Assembly: GCA_016190895.1 (NCBI GenBank)
Contig: JACPPR010000061.1
Span: 1 to 35,087, forward strand
DNA from: Chloroflexota bacterium
Lineage (GTDB): Bacteria > Chloroflexota > Dehalococcoidia > Dehalococcoidales > UBA2162
Length of the DNA stretch: 35,087 nt
Direction of reading: 5' to 3'
In this document: positions 4,497 through 31,711 of the stretch, piece after piece
Layout: every line of letters begins with the position of its first letter
Numbering within the stretch: position 1 is the stretch's first letter
Position numbers and translations under genes: made by a program
Notes under the pieces: generated by a model
Database searches by the model: none
What the model was told of the DNA's origin: nothing
What the model saw: only the letters and a program-made list of their open reading frames with translations

Positions 4497-5198
4497 ATGG
4501 ATGAGACTATACTGATTGTAGATGATGAACCTCGTGTTATCCAGCTTGTCCAGACTAATCTGGAGATGGAGGGGTTTCGCGTTGTCAACGCCGCTAGCGG
4601 GTATCAAGCGCTGGAAAAAGTTTCAAAGGACTTGCCCGACCTGGTAGTGCTCGATATCATGATGCCGGAAATGGACGGCTTCGAAACATTGCAGCGAATC
4701 AGGCAAATTTCCCAGGTGCCGGTCATTTTCCTGAGCGTCAGAGGGCAGGAGCTTGACCAGGTGAAAGGATTAGACTTGGGCGCCGACGACTACGTTACTA
4801 AGCCGTTCAGCATCAAGGAACTGGTATCGAGAATGAAGGCGGTCTTGAGAAGGACAAGAGCCAAGCCGAGCGGTGAAGGACAGGAAGTTGTCGTGGATGA
4901 TGAGTTACGAATAGACTTCAACCAGCGTGTTGTCGTGGCGCGCGGCCAGGAGGTAAGGCTGAGGCCGACAGAATACCGTCTCCTCTACCAGTTGGTGACA
5001 AACGCCGGGCGGTTGCTGACGCATGGCACTTTACTCTCCCGGGTCTGGGGCCCCGAGTACCGTGATGAAGACCAGTACGTCCGCCTCTATATCAACTATT
5101 TAAGACGTAAAATCGAAAAAGACCCGAAAAACCCGAAATATATTCTAAGCGAGAGGGGTCTCGGCTACAGGTTCAAAGGGTTCGGGCGGCGGGCATGA
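4497..5198 (+). CDS. OmpR/PhoB-family response regulator
   Basis: Receiver domain (ILIVDDEP..LVVLDIMMPEMDG..VTKPFSIKEL) and winged-helix C-terminus (LRPTEYRLLYQLVTNAGRLLTHGTLLSRVWG..YVRLYINYLRRKIEKDP). Confidence 0.96.
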   Translation: MDETILIVDDEPRVIQLVQTNLEMEGFRVVNAASGYQALEKVSKDLPDLVVLDIMMPEMDGFETLQRIRQISQVPVIFLSVRGQELDQVKGLDLGADDYVTKPFSIKELVSRMKAVLRRTRAKPSGEGQEVVVDDELRIDFNQRVVVARGQEVRLRPTEYRLLYQLVTNAGRLLTHGTLLSRVWGPEYRDEDQYVRLYINYLRRKIEKDPKNPKYILSERGLGYRFKGFGRRA

Positions 5199-5440: not shown

Positions 5441-7588
5441 TCAAACGAGCCTTTTTCTCGCGAAGCGGAAAGCCAATCCGATTACTGCTAAGGCAGGAAG
5501 ACCGATGATGATGCCCGGAATCGGCGTGGGGTTCGCATCAGACTGTGTTCTGGGTGCCGAGGCCTGCTCTGAAGCCCTTAGACCCGTCTCGGGAGCTAGC
5601 ATTACATCAGCAGCAGGTGGCTCAGGAACAGCGGCAGGTGACAATGCCGGAACTGGAAGGACCGGAACCGGTGTCTGAACGGCCTCAGAAGAGAGTGGTG
5701 GAGCGAGAGTCAGCGTGGGTTCGGGCACGGGTTCAGACTTCGGAGGCTCAGGTGCGAGCGTTGTCGTCGGCTCCTGGCTTGGTGTGGGAATTGGTGCCGG
5801 CGCCGGAGCAGGCGCTAGTGACAGCAGGGCATAGGTGGAGAAGTGGCTTATCGGGGCTGAAGCAGCTTTAGCTTCAGAATTTACTGAGGTCGCCAGATTT
5901 TCCCACTCGGAGCCGTTCCAGAAGCTAATGACAAGGCTATCCTCGGCAACTCCGGCCGGCAGCCTGGCCGGGTCATAATTCAGAGTAAGAGTTATCGGCG
6001 GGCTGAAAGTAGCGCCGCTCGGACCCAGGTCGTAGGCCAGAACAATGGCATTAAGGGATGGAGGCATTGGCAACGAGGACGTCGGCTCCGCAGTCAGCGA
6101 GGCTATCGGCTGATTGTTGGCGCCGAGCATTTGGGTACTGAAGGCAATATCGAGGCTCAGCAAGCCGTCTGAACTGTTCAAAGAAGTTGCGGCCATGGCA
6201 TGTCCCAGGGCGCCTATCGGCAGCGAGCCGCTCAGACCGATGAGGCTGACTGTTGGCAAACCCCCACCGCCGCCACCCATAGTTCCGCCACCGCTACTGA
6301 AGCCTCCCCCGCCTGCTTGCGGTAAAGGGGCAACTGGTGCAGTAGGCGTTGTCGGTACGGGAACCGATGCAGCAGGGGCAGCAGGCACGGTGGTCGTAAC
6401 CGATGAGGCAGGCGCTGTTGGTGCGGTAGGCACTGTGGATGAGGTAGCCGCAGCCGTAGTAAACGTAAGGTCGCCTGTGACAGCCGTATTGCCCGCCGCA
6501 TCCCTGGAGGTGACCCGGTAATGGTAGGCGGTCGCCGGGGCAAGTCCTGTCAGAGTAAGGCTGTGGCTGCCGACCAGAGTCGGTGCGGACTGGCTTGAGC
6601 CATAGGTAGCGGACGGCCCGTAATCGATAAAGGAGTCGGCAGCTTCATTCGTCTGCCAGGTGATGGTTGCTGAGGTGTCGCTGATTCCCGATGCTGTAAC
6701 GTTAGAAAGAGTTGGGGGTGTAGTGTCGGGGGAAGCCCTTTGATGTGTTACCCAAAGGCCATAAATATATACTTCTCCGTAATTGTTACTGGTATCATCC
6801 GTTTCCGTAGAGGTATTAGCCTGAGTATAAGCTCCGGCTTTAAAATAATTCCCGGGGCCGTTCCTGCTCAAGGTGTAAGCCGGCGTCGAACTTCCGTTGT
6901 AATAAATTTCTATCTGTCCGTTGGCCGCCACGAATTTGACGTTGAATCTTTTACCCAATGTGTAGTTGGAATCCAGTGTCGGACCGGCTGAGCCGTTGAT
7001 ATCGATGAATAGGTTCGGATATTCAAGGCGGATAACAATCACGTCGTCGACTGAGTCGTGGATTTGTCCGACCACGATATGTCTTTTGGTTTTCGGCACG
7101 GCAGTCACCGCCTGGTCGATATACATTGTGTGTACCCCCGAAGTGGTGGACCAGCTAGCCTTACTCGTTCCGTTCATTTCACGGAGTTCGGAACGCGGGT
7201 ATTTAGAACCGCTGGTTGTCACTCCGTTGACGGGCGCTCTGAACTGCACTCCGTTGCCGGAAGAGTTAACGAGAAAGTACGGGTCAATTGAATATGTGTC
7301 CAGTGCGGGCTGTTTGATTTCTCTAACACTTCCTTGAGTTCCAATTGGAAGTTGTAGCTTCCAATTGGCAAGATTCAAGATTTCCGAAGAGTAAATAGCA
7401 GATGATGCTCCCGCTGCCTGCGCCTGGTCGTCCGGGTTGACATAAAGAACGTTTGCCGCGGCTAGCGCCGCTTGAGGGACTGGATTGAGCAAAGAAGCTC
7501 CCAGAGTCAAAAGGGCCGACAGGGTGAAGAGAAATCTGAACTTAGCAGACCTGAAAAACGAGAGAAACAAGCAACCACCTCCCCACAA
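5441..7588 (-). CDS. Secreted, membrane-anchored PL7-type (alginate lyase-like) polysaccharide lyase with Fn3-like domain and C-terminal TM anchor
   Basis: 715 aa; N-terminal signal-like segment; LNLANWKLQLPIG, PRSELREM, VVGQIHDS, YFKAGAYTQ motifs typical of alginate lyase family 2/PL7; Fn3-like DTTPPTLSNVTASGISDTSATITWQTNEAADSFIDYG; Pro/Thr and Gly-rich linkers; terminal GIIIGLPALAVIGLAFRFARKRLV. Confidence 0.85.
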   Translation of the reverse strand: MWGGGCLFLSFFRSAKFRFLFTLSALLTLGASLLNPVPQAALAAANVLYVNPDDQAQAAGASSAIYSSEILNLANWKLQLPIGTQGSVREIKQPALDTYSIDPYFLVNSSGNGVQFRAPVNGVTTSGSKYPRSELREMNGTSKASWSTTSGVHTMYIDQAVTAVPKTKRHIVVGQIHDSVDDVIVIRLEYPNLFIDINGSAGPTLDSNYTLGKRFNVKFVAANGQIEIYYNGSSTPAYTLSRNGPGNYFKAGAYTQANTSTETDDTSNNYGEVYIYGLWVTHQRASPDTTPPTLSNVTASGISDTSATITWQTNEAADSFIDYGPSATYGSSQSAPTLVGSHSLTLTGLAPATAYHYRVTSRDAAGNTAVTGDLTFTTAAATSSTVPTAPTAPASSVTTTVPAAPAASVPVPTTPTAPVAPLPQAGGGGFSSGGGTMGGGGGGLPTVSLIGLSGSLPIGALGHAMAATSLNSSDGLLSLDIAFSTQMLGANNQPIASLTAEPTSSLPMPPSLNAIVLAYDLGPSGATFSPPITLTLNYDPARLPAGVAEDSLVISFWNGSEWENLATSVNSEAKAASAPISHFSTYALLSLAPAPAPAPIPTPSQEPTTTLAPEPPKSEPVPEPTLTLAPPLSSEAVQTPVPVLPVPALSPAAVPEPPAADVMLAPETGLRASEQASAPRTQSDANPTPIPGIIIGLPALAVIGLAFRFARKRLV

Positions 7589-11395: not shown

Positions 11396-11814
11396 AACTT
11401 GATAAACCCTTTCTCATACAGATAACTTCCGTTCCCTGTGACTGCATAGCCTATTTCAGCTAAACGACCCAATGCCTGGTACAATTCTTCCCTGCTACCC
11501 GTATTCTCCGGCTTCTCAAAGCAAGTGGCAAGGTCAGAGGCGATTTCGGTTAGTTTTTCATATACAACTGCCCCCTCAATAGGGAGACTTGTTCCGATCA
11601 AAGGAATCTGGGTTGTGACTTGGGTATGAGTTTGATGGGTAACCATGTGTAAGAGTGCGAGGTCACTATCCCATTCCGAATTAAGCACACGTTGCGCCTC
11701 TCCAAACAAAACACTGAAATAGAATAGTTTTCTAGCCGGGTTCGGTGTTTCCTGCATTTTGGTCGCAGCATAGCGGTATTCCTTTGCCAAACGTAGACGA
11801 ACTTCTTTATGCAT
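11392..11814 (-). CDS. Hypothetical protein, third gene of a TA-like operon
   Basis: 140 aa; start ATGCATAA overlaps the stop of the upstream XRE gene by 8 nt. Confidence 0.65.
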   Translation of the reverse strand: MHKEVRLRLAKEYRYAATKMQETPNPARKLFYFSVLFGEAQRVLNSEWDSDLALLHMVTHQTHTQVTTQIPLIGTSLPIEGAVVYEKLTEIASDLATCFEKPENTGSREELYQALGRLAEIGYAVTGNGSYLYEKGFIKF

Positions 11815-12328
11815 TGATTAGCTCCTCTGTGATTAATGCTTCAGATGCGAACGTACCCGGGACTTTTGAATTAACAAAACCAACTAAAGTATCTGTGACC
11901 ACAAGTTTCATATTCTCTGGAGAAGGTTTAACAGATGCCAAAGTCGCCAGTGCGACATGATGATTATCTTCTTCTTCGTTAAAGCTAGGTGGTGCAATGA
12001 CATCACCGGGCAGGTTGATTGCCCAATCAACCAATGTACTGAACGGTACGAATCGCACCAATAACCCTACGTCAAACGCCTTCGCTAATTCTTTCAGTGT
12101 TTTCAATGTATACTTGCCGTAGTTTGGATTTTCCCATGCTGAAAGCAAAGGTTGTTTTACTTTGAGTAATTCAGCCAATTTCGCTTGGGTCAATTTTTGT
12201 CGATCACGGAGTGCTCGAATCTGGAAAGCAATACCGACACTTATGTGTTCGTCAATGAATTGCTTACGAAACTCGATGTCATGCAGACTTTCCCATATTT
12301 GCTTACGTTTATTATTAGTTGTATTCAT
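11807..12328 (-). CDS. XRE-family HTH antitoxin-like protein
   Basis: 173 aa; HTH region IRALRDRQKLTQAKLAELLKVKQPLLSAWENPNYGKYTLKTLKELAKAFDV. Confidence 0.88.
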   Translation of the reverse strand: MNTTNNKRKQIWESLHDIEFRKQFIDEHISVGIAFQIRALRDRQKLTQAKLAELLKVKQPLLSAWENPNYGKYTLKTLKELAKAFDVGLLVRFVPFSTLVDWAINLPGDVIAPPSFNEEEDNHHVALATLASVKPSPENMKLVVTDTLVGFVNSKVPGTFASEALITEELINA

Positions 12329-12719
12329 GTTCTCTCCTGTACTTTGCAGGGTTATCTATCATTTGGGCTACTCTCTTTAAAGCTGTTTGGGGCGAGACAT
12401 TAGTTGTATAGTTCTGACCCTTGTGAATCGCACACGCTACCAGAAATACGTTATGGCCTTCCATTTTGAATATTAACCGATAATTGACCTTCCCTAATTT
12501 ACGAAGTTCCTGAAAGCCATGCCACTTTTGTCCCTTTATGGTCTTCATGGGTTTCGCGTAATTCCGCCAGACCGCTGGAGCAGAAACTTCCAATTGGGGC
12601 ATTATGTTTGTGAAATGTGCTTTTGCGTCCTTCCCATCTCCATTCAGCCAATCCTTTATGACATTCGCTCCATCCCCGTCGGCGTCAATGTAATCATAGA
12701 AGGTGAACTCATTACCCAT
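12315..12719 (-). CDS. HigB/RelE-superfamily (phage Gp49-like) toxin
   Basis: 134 aa; WHGFQELRKLGKVNYRLIFKMEGHNVFLVACAIHKGQN..TALKRVAQMIDN; directly upstream of and overlapping the XRE gene by 14 nt. Confidence 0.85.
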   Translation of the reverse strand: MGNEFTFYDYIDADGDGANVIKDWLNGDGKDAKAHFTNIMPQLEVSAPAVWRNYAKPMKTIKGQKWHGFQELRKLGKVNYRLIFKMEGHNVFLVACAIHKGQNYTTNVSPQTALKRVAQMIDNPAKYRREHEYN

Positions 12720-15660: not shown

Positions 15661-15837
15661 CCAACCTCGGGCTTGAGGCTTGCTCTGAAAGCTAGTATCT
15701 GATTAAATGTAAAGAGAAATAGGAATAATAAGAAAAAGGAGGACGGACAGATCAAAAGAAACATTGCCACAATAGAAAGCGGTACCCTGACCGAAAAGGA
15801 AGCTGAACCCCCCGGTAAAAGCAGCATTTTTCGCAAT

Positions 15838-17073
15838 TTGGAGGACGAGCCTCCAAGTACGGCTGCCACCAACAGACGCAGGTTGTTCGGAAACATACCG
15901 GATAGTACCTGGAACGACTGGAAGTGGCACTTTAGAAACAGAATCACCACGGTTGAACAGTTAAACGAGTTCATCCCTCTATCGACTGAAGAGCAGGCGC
16001 AACTCAGATGGGTAACCATGCGTTACCCCCTCTCAATAACCCCTCACTATCTCTCGCTTATCGACCCGTGTGACCCTGATGACCCCATCAGAAAGCAGGC
16101 CGTGCCGTCTATTCTTGAACTATCGATGGGCAAAATGGGCATCGAAGACCCGTTAGCGGAGAAAGAAGATTCGGCAGTCCCCGGCCTTGTGCACCGTTAT
16201 TCCGATAGGGCTTTAATGGTGCTTACCGATATCTGTCCTATGCTCTGCCGTCACTGTACGCGTAAGAGGGAATGGCGGCATGGCGGCTGGGTGCGCACCG
16301 ATGATGAAATCGAGGCGATGCTGGACTATTTGCGCCGGCACAAGGAAGTAAGGGACGTCATCCTCTCGGGTGGTGACCCCCTGACCCTGTCTACCCAGCA
16401 CCTGGAGAGTATCATCGTCCGGGTGAGAGCCATCGAGCACGTCGAGATTATCCGTATCGGTACTCGCTTCCCTGTGGTGCTGCCCCAGCGTATCGATGAT
16501 GAGCTGTGCAACATGCTCTCAAAACACGGGCCAATCTGGCTGAACACTCACTTTAACCACCCGCGGGAGTTAACTCCCGAATCGGCCAGGGCTATCGACC
16601 GCCTGCTACGGGCCGGCGTGCCGGTCAATAACCAGTCGGTGCTGCTGCGTGGCGTTAACGATTCGCTGGAAACCCAGTTGCGGCTCTGTCAGGGTCTACT
16701 CAAGATAAAGGCGCGTCCTTACTACCTCTTTCAGTGTGATGAGGTGCAGGGTACGGAACACTTGCGGACTCCTGTCGAGGTCGGCATCAGGATAATGGAG
16801 GGTATGCGCGGGCATACCTCCGGGTTCGCCATACCTAATTTTGTGGTCGACCTTTCTCATGGCGGCGGCAAAGTCCCTCTCCAGCCGAACTACATTGTCT
16901 CGCAAACTGAGGAAGAGTTGGTACTGAAAAACTACCAGGGACGCAAGTTCCGCTACCGCAACCCCAATAACAGAAAAGCTACCAGACAAATGCCTGTAGA
17001 GAGCCTGCTGTCTGCGGCCAAAAAACAGTATCAAACAAAAGGAGCGGTGGATGCGGATAGGGTTGTCGTGTGA
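15838..17073 (+). CDS. kamA: KamA-family radical SAM protein, predicted lysine 2,3-aminomutase (start uncertain; frame open upstream to at least 15751)
   Basis: CPMLCRHCTRKREW (CxxxCxxC), LSGGDPLTL, HFNHPRELTPE, CDEVQGTEHLRTPV, GHTSGFAIPNFVVDLSHGGGKVPLQPNYIV. Confidence 0.9.
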   Translation: MEDEPPSTAATNRRRLFGNIPDSTWNDWKWHFRNRITTVEQLNEFIPLSTEEQAQLRWVTMRYPLSITPHYLSLIDPCDPDDPIRKQAVPSILELSMGKMGIEDPLAEKEDSAVPGLVHRYSDRALMVLTDICPMLCRHCTRKREWRHGGWVRTDDEIEAMLDYLRRHKEVRDVILSGGDPLTLSTQHLESIIVRVRAIEHVEIIRIGTRFPVVLPQRIDDELCNMLSKHGPIWLNTHFNHPRELTPESARAIDRLLRAGVPVNNQSVLLRGVNDSLETQLRLCQGLLKIKARPYYLFQCDEVQGTEHLRTPVEVGIRIMEGMRGHTSGFAIPNFVVDLSHGGGKVPLQPNYIVSQTEEELVLKNYQGRKFRYRNPNNRKATRQMPVESLLSAAKKQYQTKGAVDADRVVV

Positions 17074-18055
17074 CCTGAAGGAAGCCGTGACGCTTGAGCC
17101 GGGTAGTCCGGAGGACGCTGCCGAGGAATACGACTCCTCGACGACAATAGAGATTATTGTCGCGGCTCTGGAAGCTAAAGGGCACTCGGTTGTCGTGCTC
17201 GGCGGCGGTCGCGAGTTTCTTGATAACATCCGCCGCGAGAAGGTGGACATCGTCTTCAATATCGCCGAGGGCAGGGGCTCCTACCGCTCGCGGGAAGCCC
17301 AGGTGCCAGCCGTCCTTGAAATGCTGGACATACCCTATACCGGCTCCGACCCCCAGTGTTTGGCGATTTGTCTGGACAAACCTCTCACCAAGAAGCTGGC
17401 GGCCGGTTTTGGCGTGAGCACGCCCGAATGGCTGACCGTAAACAACAAGCAAGAACTGCTTCAAGCCGGCTGGGAAGGGATGCCTTTTCCGGCGATTATC
17501 AAGCCGGCCTACGAAGGTTCGAGCAAGGGCATCCGTCTCACCTCCCTGGCGCACGATATGAAGCAGGCGCAGCGAGAAGTCGGCCGCGTCCTCGATTTGT
17601 ACCGTCAGCCTGTAATGGTCGAACAGTTTATCGATGGCGATGAAGTGACTGTGGGCATGGTCGGCAACTCACCGCCTGAGATAATCGGTATGATGCGGAT
17701 TATTCCCAGAAAAAAAGAGAGCCACTTCATTTACTCTCTGGAGGTAAAGCGCGATTACGTTAACCTGGTCGATTATGAATGTCCCGCCCGGCTGAGCCAA
17801 AACGTACTGGATAAGATGGCGGCTGCCAGCCTCAAGGTTTTCCAGGGGTTGGGCTGCCGGGATTTCGCCCGACTGGATTTCCGGATTAGCCCGGATGGTG
17901 TGCCCTACTTTCTGGAAGTGAATCCATTGCCTGGACTGGGGACTTATAGCGATCTGGTTATCATGGCGATAAAAATGGGCTGGACCCACGAAAAGCTGGT
18001 TGGCGCTGTGTTCGATGCTGCGCTTGAGAGGTGCCCCCAGTGTTTAGTCGAGTAA
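17051..18055 (+). CDS. D-Ala-D-Ala-ligase-like ATP-grasp protein 1
   Basis: 334 aa; DIVFNIAEG..YRSREAQVPAVLEMLDIPYTGSDP, PAIIKPAYEGSSKGI, VEQFIDGDEVTVGM, FARLDFRISPDGVPYFLEVNPLPGLG. Overlaps kamA by 23 nt. Confidence 0.9.
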   Translation: MRIGLSCDLKEAVTLEPGSPEDAAEEYDSSTTIEIIVAALEAKGHSVVVLGGGREFLDNIRREKVDIVFNIAEGRGSYRSREAQVPAVLEMLDIPYTGSDPQCLAICLDKPLTKKLAAGFGVSTPEWLTVNNKQELLQAGWEGMPFPAIIKPAYEGSSKGIRLTSLAHDMKQAQREVGRVLDLYRQPVMVEQFIDGDEVTVGMVGNSPPEIIGMMRIIPRKKESHFIYSLEVKRDYVNLVDYECPARLSQNVLDKMAAASLKVFQGLGCRDFARLDFRISPDGVPYFLEVNPLPGLGTYSDLVIMAIKMGWTHEKLVGAVFDAALERCPQCLVE

Positions 18056-19128
18056 CTCTGGTCTATAATGCACCGGAACCCTCTCGCTATGATACCACCG
18101 GCGAGGTGAAGGCGGTGCTGGGCGTTCTCGATGCCGTTCAGGCGGTGGAGCAATCGCTGCTTGAGCTTGGCTACTCGGTCACACTGCTCCCGCTGTCACT
18201 GCCTCTCGAAGAAGCCCGGGAAAAGCTGAAGGCTCTGGATACCGACCTGGTCTTTAACCTTTTTGAGGGCTTTTGTGGCTTTCCTGAAACTGAGGCCCTG
18301 GTGCCCGAGACGCTTTCGGAACTGGGGATACCATTTACAGGTTGCCAGGGAGGGATGATAAGATTATCCCTGAATAAAGCCGGGGTCAAGGTGTTCCTGA
18401 AAGCTGCCGATATACCGTCACCGGATGCCCAGGTGCTTACTCCTCAAACAGTGGATGCCTTCCAACTGGACTATCCTTGTATTGTGAAGCCTTGCGGCGA
18501 GGATGCCAGCCACGGACTGACCGGAGAGAGCGTGGTGAATGATTTTGTCTCGCTGGAGAGACAGGTAAGAGTGGTAAGCGAGTCTTACGGGGGGAGCGCT
18601 CTGGTTGAGAAATTCATCGATGGGCGTGAGTTTAATGCTACGGTTATGGGTAAATCCGGTTACTCGGTGCTGCCAATCTCTGAAATCGTCTATTCTCTGC
18701 CTCCGGAGATGCCTCGAATCCTTACTTTTGCTGCCAAATGGGAGCCGGATAGCCCCTATTTTCATGCCACGAAGGCGGTCTGTCCGGCCAAAATCAAGCC
18801 GGCAGAGAAGGAACGCATTGCTGCTACGGCTCTGGCGGTCTTCCGGCTGCTCGGCTGCAAGAGCTATGCCAGAGTCGATATGCGCGTTGATAGGCAGGGG
18901 CGGATTAACGTTATCGAGGTAAATCCCAACCCAGATATCTCGCCAGGCACCGGTGCGGCGCGTCAGGCGGCCGCGGCCGGTATGACCTACACCGAGTTCG
19001 TCGGGAAGATTATCGAAATCGCTCTCGAGAAGGAATCAAATGGCACTGAACGCCCGGCCGATGCTAAAGAAGGACAAACCGGCCCTGATGCGGATTTTGA
19101 AGACTACCCCCGAGTTCAAGCCGTCTGA
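18031..19128 (+). CDS. D-Ala-D-Ala-ligase-like ATP-grasp protein 2
   Basis: 365 aa; DLVFNLFEGFCGFPETEALVPETLSELGIPFTGC, PCIVKPCGEDASHGL, VEKFIDGREFNATVMG, YARVDMRVDRQGRINVIEVNPNPDISPG. Overlaps the previous gene by 25 nt. Confidence 0.9.
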   Translation: MPPVFSRVTLVYNAPEPSRYDTTGEVKAVLGVLDAVQAVEQSLLELGYSVTLLPLSLPLEEAREKLKALDTDLVFNLFEGFCGFPETEALVPETLSELGIPFTGCQGGMIRLSLNKAGVKVFLKAADIPSPDAQVLTPQTVDAFQLDYPCIVKPCGEDASHGLTGESVVNDFVSLERQVRVVSESYGGSALVEKFIDGREFNATVMGKSGYSVLPISEIVYSLPPEMPRILTFAAKWEPDSPYFHATKAVCPAKIKPAEKERIAATALAVFRLLGCKSYARVDMRVDRQGRINVIEVNPNPDISPGTGAARQAAAAGMTYTEFVGKIIEIALEKESNGTERPADAKEGQTGPDADFEDYPRVQAV

Positions 19129-19528
19129 GGTAGTCGTCGCCGAAGAGCTTATCGATTCTTATCTGGATGACGCCGCCGCTTCAGGGTATTCCATCCTGAT
19201 TGCCGAATCCGACTCTGTCCTGACGGGTTACATTTGCTACGGGCAGACTCCGCTAACTGAAGGTACCTGGGACATCTACTGGATGGCAGTCGCCCAAGAA
19301 AAGCGCGGGCAGGGCATCGGCGGCACCCTTCTGAAGAAGGCCGAGGAAAAGATAGAAGAGGCAGGGGGCAGGCTGGCTTTTATCGAGACATCATCTCTTC
19401 CGTCATATGAGAACACCCGGCGATTCTACCTAGGGCAAGGCTACGAAACACTCGTCCTTATTCCTGACTTTTATTCTCCCGGTGACGGTAAGCTCATCAT
19501 GCAGAAGCGGCTGAGACCGGATTCGTAG
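19040..19528 (+). CDS. GNAT-family N-acetyltransferase
   Basis: 162 aa; YWMAVAQEKRGQGIGGTLLKKAEEKI..LAFIETSSLPSYENTRRFYLGQGYE. Overlaps the previous gene by 89 nt. Confidence 0.9.
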   Translation: MALNARPMLKKDKPALMRILKTTPEFKPSEVVVAEELIDSYLDDAAASGYSILIAESDSVLTGYICYGQTPLTEGTWDIYWMAVAQEKRGQGIGGTLLKKAEEKIEEAGGRLAFIETSSLPSYENTRRFYLGQGYETLVLIPDFYSPGDGKLIMQKRLRPDS

Positions 19529-22199: not shown

Positions 22200-22823
22200 A
22201 TGGCTGGAGAGCTAACCAAGGCAGTCGCTGACCTACAGGAAGAAAAAGCTGTCAAGATGATTAATGACAGGCTGGCTACGGGTGAAGATGCTAACAAGCT
22301 ATTTAACGAAAGCCGGGAAGGGATGGAGCTAGTCGGCGAGCGGTTCGGCAAAGGAGAGTATTTTCTCCCGGAACTGGTCTATTCAGCGGAAATCTTCAAG
22401 CAGATAGCCGAGATTCTCAAACCAAAGCTGAAAACGGAGACGAAGGCGGGAAAGGCCGGCAAGGTTATCGTCGGCACTGTCGCCGGTGATATCCACGATA
22501 TCGGCAAAGACATCGTCGTCTTTATGCTCGATATGAACGGCTTTGAAGTCTACGACCTTGGCGTCGATGTTCCCCCTCAGAAATTCATCGATAAGATAAA
22601 AGAGACCGACGCCTCCATCGTCGCCCTGAGCGGATTCCTGACGCTGGCTTTCGACTCGATGAAACAGACGGTCGATGCCATCAAAGCGGCCGGCCTGCGC
22701 AACAAAGTGAAGATAATGGTTGGCGGCGGGCAAATCGATGATGAAATCCGCAAATTCTCCGGCGCTGACGCCTATGGCAAGGATGCTATGGCTGGCGTAA
22801 GTATCGCCAAAGGGTGGGCTTAG
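22200..22823 (+). CDS. Corrinoid (B12-binding) methyltransferase-type protein
   Basis: 207 aa; B12-binding cap region plus DIHDIGKDIVVFMLDMNGFEVYDLGVDVPPQKF (DxHxxG) and VGGGQIDDEI. Confidence 0.93.
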   Translation: MAGELTKAVADLQEEKAVKMINDRLATGEDANKLFNESREGMELVGERFGKGEYFLPELVYSAEIFKQIAEILKPKLKTETKAGKAGKVIVGTVAGDIHDIGKDIVVFMLDMNGFEVYDLGVDVPPQKFIDKIKETDASIVALSGFLTLAFDSMKQTVDAIKAAGLRNKVKIMVGGGQIDDEIRKFSGADAYGKDAMAGVSIAKGWA

Positions 22824-29016: not shown

Positions 29017-30285
29017 GTGAAGAAACTGACAATTCAGGAATGGGAAGAGAAATACCAGGTTGCTGCGGACAAAGAAAGATTTGACTCAAAATATGGCATG
29101 TTTAACCGGCCTATGTGGGACCCTGAGTTAAAAGACCGATTGAAAAGTTGGGGGTTCCTGGGCGATGTCAAAGATAAAGCCGGCTACACGCTCCAGGACC
29201 AGGCATTGAGATGGGGCGCCCGGCGCGGTACTCTGCTATCCCGTTTTAAGACCAGGCTGGGCACCGGCCCAGCGCCTGGTGCACCGCCACAGGCAACACC
29301 GGCACCCGGAGGCATGGCTATGGCGTCTGTAAATCCCATCGGGACAGCTACAGCAGTGGCGAGTCGTAGCCAGGTGACTACGGCGACTGAAGCTCCCGGA
29401 CGGCAGGCTGCTATGGCACCGGACAATCCCAGTATGCCGATGAATTACAAGCCCCCAGAAGGCGCCAGAATCAATACCAGCAATCCTCAAGCTATAACCC
29501 GCGATATTAAGAAAGTTGCTCGTTACTTCGGAGCTGACCTGGTAGGAATTTGTAAACTGGACAGGCGCTTCGTCTACCTCAAAGAGGAAATACCAGAGGA
29601 GTTCCAGTACGCCATAGTTATGGCTTTCGGGATGGAATATGACCTGCTCAAGTACTTCCCATCATACATTGCTGATGCTGCCACCAGTATGGGCTATAGC
29701 GACATGGCCGTTACTAACACTTACCTGGCGGCGTTCATCGAGAACCTGGGGTTTAAAGCTATCGATAGCGGAAATGATACTGCCCTCTCTATACCTTTGG
29801 CTATTCAGGCAGGACTGGGAGAACACGGCCGTCTCGGTCTCCTGGTCACCCCCCAGTTTGGGCCCCGAATAAGACTGAGCAAAATAATCACCGATTTACC
29901 TTTGGTGCCAGACTCACCGATTGATTTCGGCGTAACCGAATTCTGCGCAGCCTGCAAAAAATGCGCCCGCCTGTGCCCTTCACAATCTATCCCCCGTGGC
30001 GACCGCACCACTGAGCCAAATAACGCCTCCAACAGCAGCGGTGAGCTAAAGTGGCGCATCAATGCCGAAACATGCCGGATGTACTGGGGAAGGGTTAACA
30101 AACCCTGCACCGCTTGCATCGCCTGCTGCCCTTATAATAAACCAAATACCTGGCAGCACCGCACGGTACGCTGGTTCACTGACCGCATTCGATGGGCAGA
30201 CCCCCTGTACATTAAGATGGATGACCTTTTTGGCTACGGCAAACCTCACAAGGCAGATAAATTCTGGGAGGAGTGGCAACCCTAG
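29017..30285 (+). CDS. Reductive dehalogenase-like (RdhA-family) protein without Tat signal
   Basis: 422 aa; GYSDMAVTNTYLAAFIENLGFKAIDSGNDTALSIPLAIQAGLGEHGRLGLLVTPQFGPRIRLSKIITDLPL and two 4Fe-4S motifs CAACKKCARLCP and C-x10-CTACIACCP. No RR twin-arginine signal. Confidence 0.88.
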   Translation: MKKLTIQEWEEKYQVAADKERFDSKYGMFNRPMWDPELKDRLKSWGFLGDVKDKAGYTLQDQALRWGARRGTLLSRFKTRLGTGPAPGAPPQATPAPGGMAMASVNPIGTATAVASRSQVTTATEAPGRQAAMAPDNPSMPMNYKPPEGARINTSNPQAITRDIKKVARYFGADLVGICKLDRRFVYLKEEIPEEFQYAIVMAFGMEYDLLKYFPSYIADAATSMGYSDMAVTNTYLAAFIENLGFKAIDSGNDTALSIPLAIQAGLGEHGRLGLLVTPQFGPRIRLSKIITDLPLVPDSPIDFGVTEFCAACKKCARLCPSQSIPRGDRTTEPNNASNSSGELKWRINAETCRMYWGRVNKPCTACIACCPYNKPNTWQHRTVRWFTDRIRWADPLYIKMDDLFGYGKPHKADKFWEEWQP

Positions 30286-30412: not shown

Positions 30413-31711
30413 GTGAAGCTCACTTTAGCGGGTTTCACTGCGAGGAGGGGGGGTATGGCTACTATCGAATCAAAGCGAAATTTGAGCGCCAGTGATAAGA
30501 CCGTCCGCCGGATAACCATTGAAATCCCCGGTCCGGTGGAGCCTTTTGACGCTGAGGAGTCTTGGGATTGGCCCGAATGGCCCAAAGGCCCGGTCGGCGC
30601 CTCTCAGACAGGGGGAAGGGGAGTCCATGCTGGAAGGGCGCCCGGCGAGGCGGGACTCAATCCGATGTATTACACCTTTGCGACGTCCCGCACGCTTCTG
30701 CAGCAGATGCGAGACCCCCCGCCTGCGGGGAGGGGAGTGCCCGTTTACCCCCACAGGTATCTTGTGACTGATGAAGGGGAAATGGCCCGGAACATTAAAG
30801 CCACCGCCCGCTACCTGGGGGCGGACCTGGTGGGGATAGTGAAACTGACCCCGGAAAAGATAAAACTGGCCGCCTACCGCAAAGACCAGGAGGCCGTCAG
30901 CAAGTTCAGCCACTATATAATTGTGGCCAAGGAGATGGAGCCTCACCACTTTCGGAGCCGGCTTATTCATCCCAACTTCCGGCATCCGGTAAGAGCGCCA
31001 TCGGCCTCGGGAGATGTCCATAAGAGCTATAGCGATGTGGAGAAGATGTGTGTCCACCTGGCCGACTACATCAGGGGACTGGGCTATAATGCCGAGTCCC
31101 AGGGGCCGAGCCGCCGGTTACTTAACGGTCCCTTTGCCAACTGGGCAGGTCTGGGGGAAACAGGACGGAATAACACTGTTATTACTCCCGAGTTCGGGCC
31201 CAGAGTCAGGCTCGGGGGCGTTCTCACCGACTTGCCGATGACGGAAGACCAGCCCAGAGACCTGGGCGTGCAAGCCTTCTGCGAGGTGTGCAAGGCCTGC
31301 GTTCGGGCCTGTGCCTCGGGCGCTATCACTAAAGGCCCCAAGCAGTTGGTGCGGGGCGTGCTGCGCTGGCCGCTTAACCGAAAGCGGTGCTCGGAAGTAG
31401 GCTGGCAGCATGGCGGCGATGTCGCCTACGGTTGCCAGCAGTGTCTCATCGTCTGCCCTTTCAATAAGCCGCCGGGTCTGCTGCATGATATGGTCAGGTG
31501 GTCCATCAAGCGCACTCCCTGGCTGGACCCGTTTTTCGTCAAGATGGGCGACTTAATGCCTTCGAGTTATGAGAAGTTTCTGGACTATTCGGGTAGGGAA
31601 AAAGGTGAGAAGGCTACCCTGGGGCTCTGGCCCGAATTGTGGCATGAGAAGGGTTGGGTGGACGACTATACTCCTCCCGCTCGACCGGAGACGAGACCTC
31701 CTGAGCGTTAG
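30413..31711 (+). CDS. Divergent reductive dehalogenase-like protein without Tat signal (start may be the ATG at 30455)
   Basis: 432 aa; ATARYLGADLVGIVKL, GLGETGRNNTVITPEFGPRVRLGGVLTDLPM, CEVCKACVRAC and C-x14-CQQCLIVCPFNKP motifs. Confidence 0.83.
   Translation: MKLTLAGFTARRGGMATIESKRNLSASDKTVRRITIEIPGPVEPFDAEESWDWPEWPKGPVGASQTGGRGVHAGRAPGEAGLNPMYYTFATSRTLLQQMRDPPPAGRGVPVYPHRYLVTDEGEMARNIKATARYLGADLVGIVKLTPEKIKLAAYRKDQEAVSKFSHYIIVAKEMEPHHFRSRLIHPNFRHPVRAPSASGDVHKSYSDVEKMCVHLADYIRGLGYNAESQGPSRRLLNGPFANWAGLGETGRNNTVITPEFGPRVRLGGVLTDLPMTEDQPRDLGVQAFCEVCKACVRACASGAITKGPKQLVRGVLRWPLNRKRCSEVGWQHGGDVAYGCQQCLIVCPFNKPPGLLHDMVRWSIKRTPWLDPFFVKMGDLMPSSYEKFLDYSGREKGEKATLGLWPELWHEKGWVDDYTPPARPETRPPER

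Follow-up and report, generated by a model that had tools for sequence, protein, structure and literature searches.

An operon of a lysine aminomutase-like enzyme, two ATP-grasp ligases and an acetyltransferase in Dehalococcoidales: a candidate pathway to N-acetylated beta-lysine amides

What is made by an operon in which a lysine 2,3-aminomutase-like gene is followed by two genes for D-Ala-D-Ala-ligase-like enzymes and by an acetyltransferase gene? The question is raised by a stretch of 35,087 nucleotides from a Chloroflexota bacterium of the order Dehalococcoidales, here called the window (contig C41 of genome G000, which is 2.09 Mb in size and 79% complete). Four open reading frames were found on its + strand: KamA, a lysine 2,3-aminomutase-like protein of the radical S-adenosylmethionine (SAM) and pyridoxal phosphate (PLP) type (15751–17073), ATPg1 (17051–18055), ATPg2 (18031–19128), and a GNAT N-acetyltransferase of the 2R7H type (19040–19528). 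ATPg1 and ATPg2 are our names for the two Ddl-fold ATP-grasp ligases, of which ATPg1 was the constant partner of KamA, and KamA-ATPg1-ATPg2-GNAT is called the cassette. The successive overlaps of 23, 25, and 89 nt, which had been pointed out in a sequence-only reading of this DNA, agreed with the coordinates, with reservations about the starts of KamA and ATPg2. On balance, we consider it somewhat more probable than not that these four genes form a dedicated route to a small beta-lysine amide with an N-acetyl group, the substrates, step order, product, and role all being predictions.

The best NCBIfam model for KamA was lysine 2,3-aminomutase (TIGR03820, 478.5 bits, below the cut-off of 525.4), and the other aminomutase models scored lower, with 426 bits for glutamate (cut-off 650), 412 for arginine, and 241 for EpmB (cut-off 369). 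The sole relative in the PDB was the lysine 2,3-aminomutase (LAM) structure 2A5H (profile E 4e-166). The CxxxCxxC motif was intact, and the equivalents of C125/C129/C132, R134, D293, D330, and K337 were kept in 46 of 46 homologues. D293 and D330 are the Asp pair which binds the epsilon-amine of lysine in LAM; the motif and both lysine-type Asp residues claimed in the sequence-only reading were thus present, the pair in the entire set of homologues. The product of KamA is probably beta-lysine, formed from L-lysine, with ornithine or arginine as possible alternative substrates. C268, a ligand of the Zn site which LAM builds from C268 and C-terminal cysteines, was Ser in the window KamA and was replaced in every cassette KamA; it was retained by LAM, L265, and the AblA-AblB fusions (L denotes a locus and G a genome of our collection). 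In the tree, 24 cassette KamAs and one unlinked KamA of the cassette genome G439 formed one side of a 100/98 branch. The other side contained LAM 2A5H, AblA-AblB, a further 12 cassette KamAs, most of them from the Desulfobacterota side, and solo KamAs. Because cassette KamAs were found on both sides of this branch, the tree indicates that they do not share a single origin; the lysine-type pocket is common to them all.

Both ligases were assigned to the Ddl fold by profile (Dala_Dala_lig_C, 120 bits in ATPg1 and 93 bits in ATPg2), by AlphaFold2 models with predicted local distance difference test (pLDDT) values of 90 and 88.6, respectively, and by Foldseek. The likeness to Ddl and Van ligases included the ATP and Mg residues and the equivalents of Arg255 and Lys215, but both proteins scored below every listed Ddl/Van cut-off. 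In the numbering of E. coli DdlB, the K97, K144, E180, E187, K215, R255, D257, E270, and N272 residues were invariant in both ligases, that is, present in every sequence of the alignments. Since these are the catalytic residues of Ddl, both enzymes should be active acyl-phosphate ligases. The D-Ala pocket, in contrast, was invariantly changed. In ATPg1 the changes were H63 to E73, Y216 to R234, and L282 to D301, whereas in ATPg2 they were H63 to Glu, S150 to A159, Y216 to W237, G276 to D302, and L282 to G308. A charged substrate other than alanine would fit the Asp and Arg which ATPg1 invariantly has in its second-substrate site. MurB was found in 0 of 61 genomes of the order, with a control that was positive in 10 of 14 genomes. 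The absence of MurB from these relatives and the altered pocket residues ruled out ordinary cell-wall Ddl, and the description of the two enzymes as divergent Ddl-like ligases was borne out. A cell-wall-modifying unit, which had been named as one possible product, found no support in view of the MurB result.

The operon GNAT (Acetyltransf_1, 44 bits) matched PDB entry 2R7H over residues 6–155 with an E value of 8e-46, followed by 3e-8 for the next best structure. The family tie to 2R7H, entitled 'putative D-alanine N-acetyltransferase of GNAT family', is clear; however, the name is that of the depositors, no functional test of it was found, and the assignment to D-alanine is unsupported by the context of the cassette. 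The AblB model TIGR03827 had no match in the operon GNAT and none over the cut-off in G000, so that AblB, which the GNAT had been said not to resemble obviously, was ruled out as its identity. ATPg2 and GNAT were found as a single open frame in SAR202 (L098) and on the Desulfobacterota side (L225, L226), and possibly in Gemmataceae (L109). In some dozen Dehalococcoidales loci, GNAT was directly followed by a gene for a protein with a histone deacetylase (HDAC) domain (Hist_deacetyl), and in L224 the HDAC was fused to the cassette GNAT. These fusions, together with the linked or fused deacetylase, tie acetylation to ligation; as the deacetylase lies beside GNAT or is fused with it in many relatives, the acetyl cap is probably removable.

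The cassette order was found in 34 of 41 Dehalococcoidales loci (window included), most of the others being cut by contig ends, and the flanking genes varied between lineages. The operon is therefore more than a chance arrangement, and the neighbourhood comparison proposed in the sequence-only reading gave a conserved order with genes that co-occur. Of 101 relatives, 48 contained both KamA and ATPg1 and 4 were discordant (Fisher 5e-24, shared ancestry ignored), and the pairwise protein distances of the four families were correlated (r 0.79–0.90, all-against-all, 48 loci). Outside Dehalococcoidales, the full set was found in Acidobacteriota (L103, L106), Planctomycetota (L130), Calditrichota (L132), another Chloroflexota lineage (L159), and SAR202 (L098), and KamA-ATPg1, with or without ATPg2, in Planctomycetota, Omnitrophota, Margulisiibacteriota, Clostridiales, and Caldifarciminota. 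A phylum-level sample of 198 Desulfobacterota-side genomes was taken around G390, a Syntrophaceae metagenome-assembled genome. Here, 61 of the 64 genomes with GNAT also contained ATPg1 (Fisher 4e-34, shared ancestry ignored) and 62 of the 64 contained KamA, which lay within 4 kb of ATPg1 in 52 of 75 ATPg1 loci; lineages whose cassette genes are dispersed are among those counted. In G390 itself, ATPg1, KamA-ATPg2, and GNAT were in separate places, yet all were present; the link is therefore not one of synteny alone. In L242 and L243 (Syntrophaceae-type), a PAS-type kinase-like protein and an NtrC-like regulator were encoded between ATPg1 and the KamA-ATPg2 pair after it. A second, paralogous pair of KamA (about 354 aa) and an ATP-grasp ligase 33–36% identical to ATPg1 was found in L267 (5082–7225) and L268 (5316–7409), in two genomes of the same family which also contained the main cassette. 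A search of plasmids gave only distant Ddl-like matches of about 32% identity.

A pathway can be proposed in which KamA would isomerise L-lysine to beta-lysine, and ATPg1, by acyl-phosphate chemistry as in D-Ala-D-Ala ligase, would form an amide with beta-lysine as donor or acceptor. ATPg2 would attach a second unit, and GNAT, working with ATPg2, would acetylate a free amine. The HDAC-type deacetylase of many relatives would remove the acetyl cap and so make the acetylation reversible. The product would be a small amide or peptide of beta-lysine whose N-acetylation could be undone. It would more probably serve as a solute of the cytosol than as an antibiotic or a unit of the wall, since the cassette is conserved and mostly vertical in an order without peptidoglycan. 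This distribution suggests the role of a compatible solute or of a polycation-like polyamine analogue, not that of a wall component. The overall interpretation given beforehand thus stood in its gene order, lysine-type KamA, non-AblB GNAT, and non-Ddl ligases, and found no support in its cell-wall unit. A third, RimK-like ATP-grasp was found beside the cassette in L098, L121, L128, L132, L133, L134, and L231; in L121 (7021–8960) and L134 (6995–9915), from Margulisiibacteriota and Omnitrophota, it stood after KamA-ATPg1 together with an S66 LD-carboxypeptidase-type peptidase. As a wider and more tentative proposal, which we hold to be somewhat less probable than its contrary, the cassette may define a new class of small molecules across phyla: N-acetylated beta-lysyl peptides or beta-lysyl/polyamine amides, made independently of the ribosome and of nonribosomal peptide synthetase (NRPS) by KamA, two and sometimes three ATP-grasps, and GNAT, with turnover by a dedicated deacetylase.

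Several points weigh against the proposed beta-lysine pathway. The substrates are predictions for every member of the cassette, and the solute role is argued from distribution only; next to the operon, no gene for osmotic stress could be recognised, and a search of the window for Rfam riboswitches was negative. The probable Dehalococcoides genomes G019, G055, and G091 keep KamA-ATPg1 only, so that ATPg2 and GNAT are dispensable in places, and G005 contained a cassette-type KamA without detectable ATPg1, standing alone at 4671–5915 of L269. Lastly, in 10 Desulfobacterota-side loci (L223, L231, L233–L238, L240, L241), ATPg1-ATPg2, with or without GNAT, was accompanied by polyamine genes in place of KamA, namely a pyruvoyl arginine decarboxylase (PvlArgDC), usually with agmatinase and a deoxyhypusine-synthase-like gene. 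Beta-lysine may accordingly not be the sole amine of the ligases.

These loci also carry the best surviving alternative, which we regard as unlikely: the ligases would chiefly conjugate polyamines or polyamine-like amines, beta-lysine being an interchangeable cation or an attached unit, and GNAT and HDAC would run an acetylpolyamine cycle. The linked Hist_deacetyl protein would suit such a cycle, and the checked genomes of the polyamine variant also contained a solo KamA elsewhere. PvlArgDC was, however, found in 0 of 101 Dehalococcoidales genomes (other decarboxylases were not searched for), which ruled out a PvlArgDC polyamine route in that order, and the constant neighbour in most lineages was KamA and not a decarboxylase, as in the 52 of 75 ATPg1 loci given above. 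As arginine decarboxylase and agmatinase accompany the two ligases in another branch, a polyamine-like acceptor is possible. Both arrangements are most simply explained by ligases that use a polycationic amine, beta-lysine being the donor, the acceptor, or both.

Quite improbable, in our judgement, is a secondary metabolite, for instance an antibiotic peptide with beta-lysine, which the ligases would produce, a major facilitator superfamily (MFS) protein would export, and GNAT would acetylate for self-protection as for streptothricin. In streptothricin and viomycin, KamA-derived beta-lysine is attached in an amide, and streptothricin is acetylated by a GNAT; the beta-lysine is, however, activated there by NRPS-type enzymes encoded in secondary-metabolite loci. 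An MFS gene was found directly upstream of KamA in L022, L023, L037, L044, and L056, and in L121 the S66 peptidase was followed by an MFS-like gene. On the other hand, no exporter of MFS type adjoins the operon in the window, and the cassette is single-copy, near-vertical, and co-inherited as four genes across an order of small-genome anaerobes, unlike patchy antibiotic clusters.

More improbable still is plain synthesis of N-epsilon-acetyl-beta-lysine by the abl pathway (AblA and AblB), with the ATP-grasp genes between KamA and the acetyltransferase as incidental. A lysine-type KamA and a GNAT share one operon in the cassette, as would be expected for this pathway, and beta-lysine formation and acetylation are probably common to both. 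The cassette differs by the two ligases in between, by a GNAT which is not AblB and which is fused to ATPg2 in some genomes, and by a KamA of another clade lacking the Zn-site Cys; besides, the most constant partner of KamA was ATPg1. In the probable Dehalococcoides genomes G019 and G055, an AblA-AblB fusion was found away from KamA-ATPg1, and the cassette system is therefore distinct from the abl pathway. These fusions (L180, L181) contained AblA and AblB in one frame of 764–784 aa.

Very little credence can be given to an attachment of beta-lysine to protein or tRNA, in the manner of EpmA/EpmB for elongation factor P (EF-P): EpmB is related to KamA, but the EpmB score was far under its cut-off, known Ddl-type ATP-grasps use free amino acids, and no EF-P gene was noticed nearby. 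That the ATP-grasps serve the cell wall as D-Ala-D-Ala (D-Lac, D-Ser) ligases of the ordinary or the resistance type, as their nearest solved structures (Ddl and Van) would have it, is the least credible of all, in view of the missing MurB with a working control, the sub-threshold scores, the invariant change of Y216 to Arg/Trp, L282 to Asp/Gly, and H63 to Glu, and the co-occurrence of the ligases with KamA.

The component families are all known, and the predicted pathway combining them was found nowhere in the searched literature. No publication joining aminomutase, ATP-grasp, and beta-lysine was found in a search which left subscription journals largely outside, and the matches for KamA with ATP-grasp look, in their titles and abstracts, like chance word matches. 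A survey of ATP-grasp enzymes and amidoligases by Iyer and colleagues, reportedly of 2009, may cover related neighbourhoods. In the synthesis of N-acetylglutaminylglutamine amide (NAGGN), an ATP-grasp/GNAT and an amidotransferase yield a small solute by ligation and acetylation, which resembles the scheme proposed here; the ligase is of another type and there is no KamA, whereas no asparagine-synthetase-like gene was seen in the cassette.

By the proposed beta-lysine pathway, proteins of the peptidoglycan-free Dehalococcoidales that current models would call D-alanine--D-alanine ligase are reassigned to a widespread predicted route. If true, a systematic misannotation would be corrected, a new class of metabolites would be added for uncultured and organohalide-respiring lineages, and closed genomes holding the whole cassette would offer a concrete target for liquid chromatography-mass spectrometry (LC-MS).

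As to the gene calls, the KamA frame opens at 15751 with ATC, a non-standard start, and the first standard start is TTG at 15838. A strong AAGGAGG was found at 15736–15742, with the ATC (the apparent start) 8 nt beyond it. Since the N-termini of the homologues align from the 15751 region, with an EEEPPS repeat in common, translation probably begins at or near 15751, and the ATC may plausibly be a sequence error or a case of unusual initiation at AUC. The start of ATPg2 may be GTG at 18040 instead of 18031, being better spaced from GAGAGG, and the overlap would then be 16 nt. At the 89-nt overlap, ATPg2 ends in a C-terminal tail modelled with low confidence (pLDDT under 50 from residue 337 on). 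Promoter and terminator scans yielded about as much as shuffled sequence. The gene after GNAT in the window encodes a MarC-family protein.

Elsewhere in the window, two proteins (29017–30285 and 30413–31711) had weak reductive-dehalogenase and 4Fe-4S ferredoxin matches, with a B12-binding protein (22200–22823) and two SBP_bac_5 proteins encoded before them in the window. Adjacent, overlapping genes for HTH_3 and Gp49-like (DUF891) proteins on the − strand (11807–12719) resembled a toxin-antitoxin pair. A 715-aa protein, also encoded on the − strand (5441–7588), contained Alginate_lyase2 and fibronectin III domains, which were unexpected in this lineage.

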